The notes under the pieces are model-generated. The model did not search any database and was not told where the DNA came from. It saw only the letters and a program-made list of their open reading frames with translations. Made by a program: the position numbers and the translations under genes. Of a stretch of 38,105 nt of DNA, positions 31,395 through 38,105 are shown in pieces; position 1 is the stretch's first letter, and every line of letters starts with the position of its first letter. Location of the stretch: the NCBI GenBank assembly GCA_025062415.1, contig JANXAH010000144.1, forward strand, positions 1 to 38,105, written 5' to 3'. This DNA comes from Anaerolineae bacterium. Lineage in GTDB: Bacteria > Chloroflexota > Anaerolineae > B4-G1 > DUEL01.

Positions 31395-31547
31395 ATTGCA
31401 ATTCTAATTGTCCTCTTGTGGGATTCTAACGCAAGGATGGCATGATAGTAGGCGCAATTAGATGCAATGGACTCTCCGCAGGCCAAACCCTGCGGGCAAA
31501 CAAAATAGAGATTCCCAAAATCCCTTCGGGGAAAGGAGGTGATGGTT

Positions 31548-31991
31548 ATGTCGCTGATGAGATGGGAGCCCTTCCGGGAACTGCTGAGCCTGCGCGAGGC
31601 GATGAATCGGCTGATGGAGGAGACTTTCCTCCGCCCGTGGGAGCCCTGGACCCGCTGGACGGAAGTTCCGGCGGTGGATATGTATGAGACGGACGAGGCG
31701 GTAGTGGTGAAGGCTGCTATCCCCGGCGTGAAGCCGGAGGATGTGGAGATCAGCGTCACCGGCGATACCCTGACCATCCGGGGTGAAGTCAAGCGGGAGG
31801 AGAAGGTCAAGGAAGAGAACTACGTCCGTCAGGAGCGCTACTACGGCACCTTCTGCCGGTCCCTTCTCCTGCCGACCCGGGTCGTCGCCGATGACGCGGA
31901 GGCCGTCTTTGAGAACGGTGTCCTGACCTTGACCCTCCCCAAGGCGGAGGAGGTCAAGCCCAAGGCTATCAAGGTCAAGGCCAAGAAATAA
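31548..31991 (+). CDS. Hsp20/alpha-crystallin small heat-shock protein
   Basis: VPAVDMYETDEAVVVKAAIPGVKPEDVEISVTGDTLTIRGE...FENGVLTLTLPKAEE; strong RBS AAAGGAGG. Confidence 0.95.
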   Translation: MSLMRWEPFRELLSLREAMNRLMEETFLRPWEPWTRWTEVPAVDMYETDEAVVVKAAIPGVKPEDVEISVTGDTLTIRGEVKREEKVKEENYVRQERYYGTFCRSLLLPTRVVADDAEAVFENGVLTLTLPKAEEVKPKAIKVKAKK

Positions 31992-32002
31992 TCCGAACCC
32001 TT

Positions 32003-32037
32003 GGGTGGTCGGCGTTCGGCGCCGACCACCCCCTTTT
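32003..32037 (+). terminator. Hairpin between the two hsp20 genes (attenuator/terminator)
   Basis: GGGTGGTCGGCG-TTCGG-CGCCGACCACCC-CCTTTTC. Confidence 0.75.
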
Positions 32038-32064
32038 CAAATCCCCGAAAAAGGAGGTGAGACT

Positions 32065-32505
32065 ATGTCGCTGATCAGCCCGCTGCGTGAGATTATGACC
32101 CTGCGCGAGGCAATGGATCGGCTGTTTGAGGAACCCTTCTTCCGGCCCTGGAGCCTATGGCGGCGCGGCACGCCGGAGGAGCCGCTGCGGCTGCCCGTGG
32201 ACGTCTACACCACCCCGGAGGAGATCGTTATCGTCGCCTCTGTCCCGGGCCTTCTGCCTGAGGAGGTGGACGTCTCCATCCAGGGGGACACGCTGACCAT
32301 CCGGGGTGAACTCCGCCCGCCGCTGGACAACGTCCAGTACCTCTTCCAGGAGCGGCCCTACGGTCCCTTCACCCGCTCCCTGGTACTGAACGTCCCAGTG
32401 GATGTGGAAAAGGCGGAGGTAACTCTGGAGAACGGCGTGCTGACCATTACGCTGCCCAAGGCCGAGGAGATCAAGCCCAAGACCATCAAAGTGAAGGCCA
32501 AATAA
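32065..32505 (+). CDS. Hsp20/alpha-crystallin small heat-shock protein (tandem paralog)
   Basis: LPVDVYTTPEEIVIVASVPGLLPEEVDVSIQGDTLTIRGE...LENGVLTITLPKAEEIKPKTIKVKAK. Confidence 0.95.
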   Translation: MSLISPLREIMTLREAMDRLFEEPFFRPWSLWRRGTPEEPLRLPVDVYTTPEEIVIVASVPGLLPEEVDVSIQGDTLTIRGELRPPLDNVQYLFQERPYGPFTRSLVLNVPVDVEKAEVTLENGVLTITLPKAEEIKPKTIKVKAK

Positions 32506-34922: not shown

Positions 34923-35897
34923 TTATGCGAAAAGATACTTGGCGGTCCGCTCCAGCATGGGCACGCCCTGGACTTCCGTTTCAAAAAGCGGCACCAGGGC
35001 GCGGACGTTGGGGAAGAGCCGCCGGATTTCTTCCATGTACTCCGCCTGCATAGCGATGCGGTTGCGGACGAACTCCGGCGGGTTCTCCCCGACGGCCTTG
35101 GGGTCAATCAGCATATTGACCACGACGCCGCCCACCGGGATGCCGAAGTCCTCAAACCAGTTGATGAAACGGCGGATGACTGCGATGGGCAGAGCCTCCG
35201 GCAGGGTGACGAAGAAGAAGGCCGTCTTCTCCGCGTCCGTCAGCAGCCGCTTGGCCTGGGAAATCCGGTCCCGGAACCGCAGCAGGTACTCCATCAGCGG
35301 GTCCTTCTCCTGCTTCTTCTTGCTGTAGGAGAGGAGTTCCCGCAGGGTCATCGCCTCCTGGCGGCTCTGGACCATCTTGTTGACCCACATAGAATAGACG
35401 CTGGACATCCCCAGGAGTCGGCGGGCATTGGCGGTGGGTGCGGTGTCAAAGACGTAGACCTCGTACTTGTCCTCAAACATAATGTCAATCATGTTCTCAA
35501 ACATCGCCGACTCCTCAAAGGCCGGGTTCATCGTGGCGGATTCCACGAACTCGTCGGTCTTCACCCGGATGTCGGCGTATTTGAGGAACCACTCAATTTT
35601 CTCCCGGATCTCCCGCTTGGACCGTTCAATGGTGTCCTTGGTGTCAATCTCGTAAGCCCAGAGGTTTGGAACACCTTGCACGGGGGTGGGCTTACCGAAG
35701 ACATCCTGGCGCAGGAGGCCGCTGAGGGAGTGGACCGGGTTGGTGGAAGCCAGAAGGGTGCGCCGACCCTGACGGGCGAACCAGAGCGCGGCGGTCCCCG
35801 CCATCACGGTTTTCCCCACGCCGCCCTTGCCGCCGAAAAAGATGTATTTCAGATTGGGGTGCTCCTGGACAAACTGGGTCATGGACTTTTCAATCAT
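34923..35897 (-). CDS. ArsA/Get3-like ATPase 1 (324 aa, single domain)
   Basis: KYIFFGGKGGVGKTVMAGTAALWFARQGRRTLLASTNPVHSLSGLL (deviant Walker A); VFDTAPTANARRLLGM. No cysteines. Confidence 0.9.
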   Translation of the reverse strand: MIEKSMTQFVQEHPNLKYIFFGGKGGVGKTVMAGTAALWFARQGRRTLLASTNPVHSLSGLLRQDVFGKPTPVQGVPNLWAYEIDTKDTIERSKREIREKIEWFLKYADIRVKTDEFVESATMNPAFEESAMFENMIDIMFEDKYEVYVFDTAPTANARRLLGMSSVYSMWVNKMVQSRQEAMTLRELLSYSKKKQEKDPLMEYLLRFRDRISQAKRLLTDAEKTAFFFVTLPEALPIAVIRRFINWFEDFGIPVGGVVVNMLIDPKAVGENPPEFVRNRIAMQAEYMEEIRRLFPNVRALVPLFETEVQGVPMLERTAKYLFA

Positions 35898-36874
35898 TCC
35901 ACACCTCCAAACATCACCTCCGCCATCCGCCGAATCATATCCAGGCCCGTCACATCCCGCTCAAACTCCGGGACGTAGGCCAGCACCTGGTTGCCGAAGC
36001 GCTGCCGGATTTCGGCCAGGTACTTCTTCTGCATCTGGATGCGGTGGCGCAGGTACTCGGGGATGTCCTGCTGTTCCAGTTCTGGTGGGATAACCCGGTT
36101 GACGATGTAGCCGGAAATCGGGACCTGGAATTTGGCAAAGAGCCCCGCAGCCTTGATCGTATCCAGGATGACCATCTCCTCCGGGATGAGGACGAAGAAG
36201 AAGGCCGTCTTTTCCTTATCGGTCAGTATGCTGGAGGAGGTGTTGATCCGGTAGCGGATATCCTGCAGTTCCGCCAGGATTTTGTCCTCCTCCAATTCCT
36301 CGTCCCGGCGCAGCAGCGCGGCAACCTGGGCGTACTCTTGCATCTCCTCCCGGAGTTTGGTGATTTTCTCAATCCACTGGTCGTAGACGCTGGCCATGCT
36401 CAAATAGTAGAGCGCGTGGCCCAAGGGGACCAGGTCGTAGATATAGTAGTCGTAGCCGCCGCTGACGACGATGTCTACCACCTGGTCAAAGATGGCGCTC
36501 TCTTCCATTGCTGGCTCGGCCGCCGCAGCCTGGATGTAATCCTCAATCTCATCCGGCACCTTCTCCAGGCCGTACATCTTCAGGATTTTCTGGCGGATTT
36601 CTTCCTGGTATTCCCGGATGCGCCGGTCGGCATCTATTTCCTGGGCGAAAAGGCCAGGGATGATCTCCACGGGCCCTTTCCCGAAGATGTCCTGCTGGAA
36701 GATGTCGGAGAGGGAGGCCTGAGGGTCCACGGAGAAGACCAGGACTTTATAGCCCTGTTTCGCCAGCCAGTAGGCCGTGGCGGCGGAGAAGGTGGTCTTC
36801 CCCAGCCCGCCCTTGCCGCCGAACATAATGTAACGGCGCTCAGGATGTTGTTTGAAGACTTCTGCGAGGGACAA
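35894..36874 (-). CDS. ArsA/Get3-like ATPase 2 (326 aa, single domain)
   Basis: RYIMFGGKGGLGKTTFSAATAYWLAKQGYKVLVFSVDPQASLSDIF; IYDLVPLGHALYYLSM. No cysteines. 4-nt overlap with next gene. Confidence 0.9.
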   Translation of the reverse strand: MSLAEVFKQHPERRYIMFGGKGGLGKTTFSAATAYWLAKQGYKVLVFSVDPQASLSDIFQQDIFGKGPVEIIPGLFAQEIDADRRIREYQEEIRQKILKMYGLEKVPDEIEDYIQAAAAEPAMEESAIFDQVVDIVVSGGYDYYIYDLVPLGHALYYLSMASVYDQWIEKITKLREEMQEYAQVAALLRRDEELEEDKILAELQDIRYRINTSSSILTDKEKTAFFFVLIPEEMVILDTIKAAGLFAKFQVPISGYIVNRVIPPELEQQDIPEYLRHRIQMQKKYLAEIRQRFGNQVLAYVPEFERDVTGLDMIRRMAEVMFGGVE

Positions 36875-36889
36875 GGTGGACCTCCTTGA

Positions 36890-36917
36890 GCGAGTGTGCG
36901 AGTGAGCGAGTGGGCGA
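36890..36917. repeat. 8-bp tandem repeat GCGAGTGN, 3 full plus 1 partial unit
   Basis: gcgagtgt-gcgagtga-gcgagtgg-gcga in the gap between small-protein and ATPase genes. Confidence 0.85.
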
Positions 36918-36919
36918 GA

Positions 36920-37192
36920 TTATGCCAGGGCGTCGGTCAGATCGCGTTCCCGGAGCATGCGGCGCTTCCATGTGGCGATCTGGGGGACGACGTAGGGAAG
37001 CAGGCGCAGGGAGTAGTAGGGCGGAAGGATGGGAATGCCCAGCAGGTCACCCATAGTGACCAGAATGAAGAGGTGCTCCATGCTCCCACGCGTCTTGAGG
37101 GCAAAGCGGGCCATGTCGTGCCCGGCCATACCGTAGAGGACACTCTTGACACCCTCCCAGAAGTTTTGCCATTTGTTTTTTTGTGCGGACAT
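36920..37192 (-). CDS. Small conserved-looking protein A (~90 aa), unknown
   Basis: MSAQKNKWQNFWEGVKSVLYGMAGHDMARFALKTRGSMEHLFILVTMGDLLGIPILPPYYSLRLLPYVVPQIATWKRRMLRERDLTDALA; paralog of next ORF. Confidence 0.85.
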   Translation of the reverse strand: MSAQKNKWQNFWEGVKSVLYGMAGHDMARFALKTRGSMEHLFILVTMGDLLGIPILPPYYSLRLLPYVVPQIATWKRRMLRERDLTDALA

Positions 37193-37232
37193 TTCGCTCC
37201 AACCTCCTGAAGGATTATAGAGAATTATACCC

Positions 37233-37556
37233 CTACCCAATCTCCTGGTCAAACAACTCACAGATATCCCGCTCCCGGAGCATGCATCGTTTCCAGGATT
37301 CCAGGCGAGGGACCATATACGGAATCAGCCGCATGGTATAGTAGGGGGTCAGGATAGGGATGCCCAGCAGATCGCCAAAGACGATCAAGGTGAAGGCCTG
37401 CTCCACTTCCCCGCGCGCCTTCTGCAGTTCCCGCACCCAGTCGTGGAGGGTCATCCCGTAGAAGATGTCCCGCAGGGTGCAGAGGGCCTGGCTCAGCCGT
37501 TCCCGAATCGCCTCTGGCAGAGAAGGGCGCTCTTCTTCAGGGCATTGGGCAGTCAT
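37233..37556 (-). CDS. Small conserved-looking protein B (~107 aa), paralog of A, unknown
   Basis: IFYGMTLHDWVRELQKARGEVEQAFTLIVFGDLLGIPILTPYYTMRLIPYMVPRLESWKRCMLRERDICELFDQEIG. Confidence 0.85.
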   Translation of the reverse strand: MTAQCPEEERPSLPEAIRERLSQALCTLRDIFYGMTLHDWVRELQKARGEVEQAFTLIVFGDLLGIPILTPYYTMRLIPYMVPRLESWKRCMLRERDICELFDQEIG

Positions 37557-37570
37557 TGGAAAACCTCTAT

Positions 37571-37927
37571 TCACCCATAAATTGCTCGTAGTGCCTGCTC
37601 CAGAGCGTCCCAATCCCAGCCCACCACCTTGCGGCCTCCCGGCAGGATAAAGGTGGGATAGCGACGGACACCATGCCGCAGGCATTTCCAGAACCCTTCC
37701 AGGGACTGGGGGTCCACTACTCGCACCTGAAGTGTCGGACCGAAGCGGAGGACCAGTTTGTTGATCCAGTCCATCAGACGGTTAAACTCCTCCAGGAACT
37801 CCGCCGGGTACTCCTGCAGCATCTCCCGGCGGGCCTGGTCTCCCACCGCCTCCGCCGAAAGTACCTCACAGGCCAGGCAGTGACGGAAGGTGGTCGGAAT
37901 GGGCATCAGAATCTGCAATTGCACCAT
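37571..37927 (-). CDS. Thioredoxin-fold-like protein with CxxC
   Basis: RHCLACEVLSAEAVGD...VRVVDPQSLEGFWKCLRHGVRRYPTFILPGGRKVVGWDWDALEQALRAIYG (CLAC; cis-Pro-like YPTFIL). Confidence 0.72.
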   Translation of the reverse strand: MVQLQILMPIPTTFRHCLACEVLSAEAVGDQARREMLQEYPAEFLEEFNRLMDWINKLVLRFGPTLQVRVVDPQSLEGFWKCLRHGVRRYPTFILPGGRKVVGWDWDALEQALRAIYG

Positions 37928-38016: not shown

Positions 38017-38105
38017 TTACCGGCGGGCCTTCGCCAGTTCGGCCCGGTAGCGACGAATGGAGCCGATGCCGTCCACCACCAGGATGACAGCCAGCACCAC
38101 CAGAA
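38017..38105 (-). CDS. C-terminus of a membrane protein, truncated by window edge
   Basis: ...LVVLAVILVVDGIGSIRRYRAELAKARR* read on minus strand. Confidence 0.55.
   Translation of the reverse strand, partial: LVVLAVILVVDGIGSIRRYRAELAKARR

Follow-up and report, generated by a model that had tools for sequence, protein, structure and literature searches.

A CstA-family transporter operon with paired ArsA/Get3-type ATPases, CstX-like small proteins and a thioredoxin-like gene in an Anaerolineae genome

Gene content of the locus

The window, by which we mean the whole stretch of 38,105 nucleotides that was analysed, comes from a 2.7-Mb genome bin of an Anaerolineae bacterium (264 contigs, 93% complete) whose congeners are Thermoflexales/Anaerolineae MAGs. 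Towards the end of the window lies a compact set of genes, given here in order of transcription:

38017..38103, minus strand: 3' end of cstA (CstA family, PF02554), the final 28 codons and the stop
37571..37927, minus strand: trx, thioredoxin-like, with CxxC (C17-L-A-C20) and a cis-Pro-like YP
37233..37556, minus strand: cstX2 (small protein B), about 107 aa, NF041419 match, paralog of cstX1
36920..37192, minus strand: cstX1 (small protein A), 90 aa, NF041419 match, AGGAGG upstream
35894..36874, minus strand: AT2, ArsA/Get3-type half-ATPase, GKGGLGKT, SVDPQASLSD, TTG start
34923..35897, minus strand: AT1, ArsA/Get3-type half-ATPase, GKGGVGKT, STNPVHSLS

The five minus-strand reading frames from trx to AT1 lie in the order given by the preliminary description and are as tightly spaced as it had reported: the two ATPase genes overlap by 4 nt, and the remaining gaps in the five-gene cluster are 45, 40 and 14 nt. 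The likely start of cstX2 is at 37556, the ORF from 37685 having an over-long start, and that of cstX1 is at 37192, behind the AGGAGG, rather than at the start of the longest ORF.

With the contig ending inside it, cstA escaped the preliminary description. On the minus strand, positions 38103-38017 encode LVVLAVILVVDGIGSIRRYRAELAKARR followed by a stop codon; this is the CstA C-terminus, identical in 27 of 28 residues to that of a congener (L060). Another contig of the same genome, C137, has an exact 141 nt overlap with the window end, carries the rest of cstA (C137:53-1798), giving a CstA of 581 aa, and holds the only CstA of this genome (Pfam E 2.8e-96). Such an overlap is typical of contigs that share an end in the assembly graph. 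The join could in principle be wrong; five congeneric loci (L060, L062-L065) have the matching gene order, each on a single contig. From the join and the gene order in the congeners together it follows that the operon is cstA-trx-cstX2-cstX1-AT2-AT1. The window thus ends inside an operon whose first gene, cstA, is cut at the contig edge.

Two adjacent genes for HSP20-type small heat-shock-like proteins, so named from sequence, are found at window positions 31539-32505 on the plus strand. Hsp20 accompanies ArsA in gas-vesicle clusters, and we therefore considered its involvement here but set it aside: the HSP20 genes are separated from the end of the operon by more than 2 kb, a stretch that contains biotin-ligase-like, MgtC and TPR genes.

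Conservation across genomes

A scan of species genomes yielded 423 stretches that encode proteins related to the two small ones, and the best 80 of these were examined; being the top matches to a Chloroflexota query, they are biased towards this type of locus. They span Chloroflexota, Acidobacteria, Desulfobacterota and others. The commonest extra neighbour in related loci is an upstream protein of about 580 aa that matches PF02554 (E 8e-114 for L083), and among the best 80 of 423 CstA is present in 68, mostly on the same strand and just upstream. This constant neighbour, CstA, had gone unnoticed in the preliminary description. The commonest gene orders, again among the best 80 of 423, are cstA-trx-cstX-cstX-AT2-AT1 (25 loci), cstA-cstX-cstX-AT2-AT1 (20) and cstA-cstX-AT2-AT1 (6). 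Where CstA is missing from one of these 80 loci the cluster is at or near a contig end, with the exception of L068, in whose genome CstA is found near the end of another contig, and of L131, from a genome that carries cstA and trx side by side at another site. At L131 itself a radical-SAM/SPASM-like gene (L131:3789-5348) sits just upstream of the CstX-ATPase block that has no cstA neighbour.

A single, fixed set of 400 genomes sampled from Chloroflexota had CstX in 38, CstA in 39 (both counts leave out the window genome) and the two together in 36 (Fisher p 3e-45, with no correction for relatedness); CstX occurred without CstA in 2 genomes and CstA without CstX in 3. Since rows and genomes are related, such counts are not independent events. 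The five-gene unit is not a chance arrangement, as it recurs in dozens of genomes from several phyla. A tblastn search of plasmids with CstX gave no match, and neither CstX nor ArsA adjoins CstA at the haloarchaeal plasmid loci.

The ATPase pair

The profile search suggested in the preliminary description places both ATPases in the Get3/ArsA/TRC40 family: AT1 and AT2 match PF02374 and TIGR00345 far over cut-off in Pfam and NCBIfam (207 and 237 bits for TIGR00345, cut-off 135), and both have the deviant Walker A motif already pointed out there, GKGG[VL]GKT, of the KGGxGK type. They are 37% identical to each other. Cysteine occurs in neither sequence, and both therefore lack the Zn-binding CxxC known from Get3.

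Switch I of AT1 is STNPVHS in 73 of 73 rows, with Asn at the position of Get3 Asp57, and its switch II is DTAPTANARRLL. AT2 keeps the catalytic Asp (SVDPQ or PVDPL, 78 of 78 rows) and has an altered switch II, DLVPLGHALYYL, in the same 78 of 78. On a divergent Chloroflexota branch the AT1 motif is SLNPVHSL; in AT2, switch I is STDPQASL and switch II is changed. Actinobacterial CstA operons have single ATPases of canonical type, with STDPAH, D[TS]AP and DTAPTGHTLRLL-type motifs. AT1, AT2 and these singles form one clade each (support 100/99, 100/98 and 100/100) in a tree that is unrooted and in which some long branches meet. AT1 and AT2 were always paired in the loci examined, their genes overlapping by 4 nt in 45 of 74 loci and lying no more than 60 nt apart in 72 of 74.

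The usual form of an ArsA/Get3 ATPase is a symmetric dimer or a fused pseudo-dimer. Because AT1 and AT2 are always paired, fall into separate clades, have complementary active-site changes and usually overlap by 4 nt, they probably form a heterodimer, and the earlier proposal of two partnered half-ATPases is thereby strengthened. Yeast Get3 cannot hydrolyse ATP without D57, and its D57N variant traps the nucleotide (PMC12506534). The complementary changes suggest that one ATPase mainly holds ATP and the partner burns it; we infer that AT1 would be the hydrolysis-dead, ATP-holding half of an obligate asymmetric heterodimer.

The same genome encodes a third ArsA/Get3-like protein, a single gene on another contig (G000:C47:24891-25760, L238) with a more canonical active site, in which the switch-I Asp is kept (SSDLTPSLSD) and switch II is DTAP.

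The small proteins

The products of cstX1 and cstX2 are paralogs (53% identity over 73 aa). Both match NF041419 (cory-CC-star), cstX2 with E 1.9e-10 (40.6 bits) and cstX1 with E 9.5e-8; the scores of 32-41 bits against a curated cut-off of 80 are well above chance but fall far short of membership. They thus appear related to that family at the profile level, a relationship that counts against the preliminary view of an undescribed system. By their size (about 90 aa), their place and their cory-CC-star profile, they fit the published description of CstX, and we use this name for them. Full members of NF041419, from Actinomycetota, are likewise found between cstA and an ArsA gene. Unlike the proteins here they end in CC, a tail that none of 145 CstX ORFs has, and they stand beside one canonical ATPase instead of two.

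An AlphaFold model of CstX has two helices at low confidence (pTM 0.35) and matched nothing in the PDB. The protein has one hydrophobic stretch, borderline for a membrane segment (KD maximum 1.6). Homology of CstX to YbdD/YjiX was tried on account of a similar-looking [YI]GM motif and the adjacency to CstA, and was rejected (hhalign probability 0.4%); we keep the likeness as an analogy. In the Pfam search the small proteins had no match to PF04328 (YbdD/YjiX), which was found in 0 of 400 Chloroflexota genomes by a search that detects the E. coli and C. glutamicum controls. CstX here occupies the genomic place that YbdD/YjiX has beside CstA in proteobacteria.

A one-to-one match of small paralogs to ATPases does not hold up: in 11 loci that have CstA as well as AT1 and AT2 there is only one CstX on the same strand, and some Chloroflexota have three. 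At three loci of one Chloroflexota family (L182, L183 and L199) the third CstX gene lies directly downstream of AT1. Lone CstX-like genes also occur: one (L058:4806-5069, in genome G058) is directly upstream of HdrC/HdrB/HdrA-like genes, named from their sequences, and two (L056:7167-7439 and L185:7003-7275) lie beside a roadblock-like ORF of 390 aa, away from the cst operon. G058, which is 92% complete, has no CstA match.

The thioredoxin-like protein

The trx product has no family match in Pfam or NCBIfam, ArsD included, and its profile reaches thioredoxins weakly (best E 5e-4). Its predicted model (pLDDT 89.5, falling to 65-69 around the CxxC) has a thioredoxin-like fold with CxxC at the start of helix 1 and a cis-Pro-like motif, and its best fold matches are thioredoxins (E 2e-3, TM ~0.5, a modest likeness). 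Both CxxC cysteines are invariant in 35 such sequences. It is therefore as a thioredoxin-type CxxC protein, rather than as the ArsD-like one proposed earlier, that it models. At four loci (L194, L196, L200 and L233) the operon is divided, with cstA and trx adjoining each other in one part and CstX and the ATPases making up the other; trx thus keeps company with cstA and not with the ATPases, contrary to the ArsD analogy. Since trx is absent near many clusters (20 of 51 two-CstX loci with CstA), it is best seen as an accessory. In the loci examined, CC-tailed CstX occurs without trx, and tail-less CstX is often found with it. The CC tail and trx might replace each other in a single thiol function, but this is no more than a guess, as the pattern follows clade lines.

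Relation to known systems

Operons of this kind were already predicted in 2010. Castillo & Saier reported 26 associations of CstA with ArsA, 24 of them with CstX, and parallel trees; they predicted that the ArsA homologues energise CstA through CstX. They also recorded that Pyrobaculum arsenaticum and Symbiobacterium thermophilum have two ArsA genes side by side, and that CstX is paired in two organisms (PMC2963123). The system is thus not undescribed, as had been thought. The operon here shares with theirs CstA (joined across the contig overlap, contiguous in the congeners), and single-domain ArsA of about 330 aa, with no arsR or other ars genes in the operon, and its small proteins fit CstX in size (about 90 aa) and place. 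It differs from that account in two respects: the asymmetry of paired ATPases is unreported there, ArsA homodimers having been suggested, and the accessible part of the text does not mention a thioredoxin-like cst gene (PMC2963123). What is new here is the complementary paired active sites, fixed across the phyla sampled, the thioredoxin-like component tracking CstA, and the link between cory-CC-star and CstX.

Pyruvate uptake by E. coli CstA depends on YbdD, the small protein encoded next to it (PMC5847655). Both this pair and btsT-yjiX-yjiA resemble the present operon in having a CstA-family transporter followed by a small protein (YbdD obligate, YjiX adjacent), and the latter also includes a P-loop NTPase gene. 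YjiA is, however, a GTPase annotated outside ArsA, and those operons have no ATPase pair and no thioredoxin-like gene; the resemblance of the btsT-yjiX-yjiA layout to cstA-cstX-ATPase may be a coincidence. Adjacent genes for a BtsT/CstA-type transporter, YjiX and the P-loop GTPase YjiA were also seen among our loci, in E. coli and Rahnella (L175:1410-4780 and L179:3330-6732).

Two adjacent ArsA/Get3-type ATPases are likewise found in Rv3679/Rv3680 (BagA/BagB) of M. tuberculosis, two chains of one structure (PDB 6bs3), though these are a remote sequence match (E 2e-9 and weaker), and AT1 and AT2 score 41-51 and 34 bits for NF053622/NF053621 against cut-offs of 400 and 521. The ArsAB arsenite pump is similar in that an ArsA-family ATPase is proposed to act on a membrane transporter. 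Here, unlike there, the transporter is CstA, two separate half-ATPases lack cysteines, and the arsenical pump-driving equivalog TIGR04291 is reached with only ~100 bits against a cut-off of 650.

Possible functions of the operon

Energising, gating or assembling CstA are the candidate roles that the sequences leave for the ATPase pair. We consider it somewhat probable that the cluster is a CstA-family transporter operon in which an asymmetric ATPase acts on CstA via CstX, with a thiol-redox accessory. AT1 and AT2 would form one ATPase, in which AT2, with the catalytic switch-I Asp, hydrolyses ATP and AT1, with an Asn like that of the ATP-trapping Get3 variant, mainly holds it; CstX proteins would attach the pair to CstA, where the ATPase cycle would control or energise uptake of the substrate, by analogy with E. 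coli perhaps pyruvate or peptides. The thioredoxin-like protein may be a redox accessory of CstA. Several observations count against this: BtsT carries the annotation of a proton symporter, no homology is detectable between CstX and YbdD, CstX occurs without CstA (G058) and CstA without CstX (in three Chloroflexota genomes), and trx is often missing. Energisation by ATP is moreover not required by the CstA fold, since E. coli CstA with YbdD transports without ArsA.

An alternative that we regard as possible, if less so, is that the ATPases serve as a Get3-like chaperone for targeting or insertion, bringing either CstX or CstA to the membrane instead of powering transport. The nearest solved relatives of AT1 and AT2 by sequence are archaeal Get3-type ATPases (3ug6 and 3zq6) and not two-domain ArsA, and CstX, being short, with one hydrophobic stretch and modelled as two helices, could be a client, although the model is of low confidence. 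A natural change of Asp57 to Asn, moreover, gives a long-lived, ATP-bound, client-holding form (PMC12506534). On the other hand, the missing Zn-binding CxxC speaks against a Get3-like chaperone, and a targeting factor dedicated to one transporter would be unusual. It seems unlikely that CstX and the ATPases are a general module for some other membrane or cytosolic target, CstA being merely the commonest neighbour. CstX is indeed found without CstA near the HdrCBA-like and roadblock-like genes, and CstX-ATPase blocks lie away from cstA in L131 and L195; yet CstA and CstX occur together in 36 of the 41 genomes that have either, and no ATPase genes lie beside the lone CstX genes.

The preliminary description had favoured a new ArsA-like metalloid or redox system, with perhaps one small paralog per ATPase and a thioredoxin-like metallochaperone resembling ArsD, while granting that ordinary arsenite export was unsupported. 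We agree on the latter point, and reject an arsenic role: ArsB and Acr3 are absent from the whole genome bin. Family membership of both ATPases and the modelled thioredoxin fold would suit a metalloid system, but the lack of these exporters and of cysteines in either ATPase, the loci with a single CstX, and the thioredoxin-like gene's following CstA in split loci make it highly improbable, and the constant linkage to cstA largely refutes it.

To return to an ATPase acting on CstA, its strongest form can be put forward only tentatively: CstA would be driven or gated by an obligate ArsA/Get3-type heterodimer, with AT1 as a fixed ATP trap and AT2 as the working ATPase, coupled by CstX and under thiol control by the thioredoxin-like protein. 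If this is true, a carrier that acts as a secondary transporter in other settings would have an ATP-dependent form here. The operon also raises the question of how CstA carriers can manage with just YbdD in some bacteria when others employ an ATPase. From the sequences alone, a split and asymmetric ArsA/Get3 pair is predicted, fixed across several phyla, in which the Asn of AT1 is the very residue used in Get3 biochemistry to make an ATP-trap mutant. The 2010 proposal that ArsA homologues energise CstA, for which the literature searched holds no test, thereby becomes directly testable, with a likely function attached to an unnamed small-protein family and a thioredoxin-like component added.
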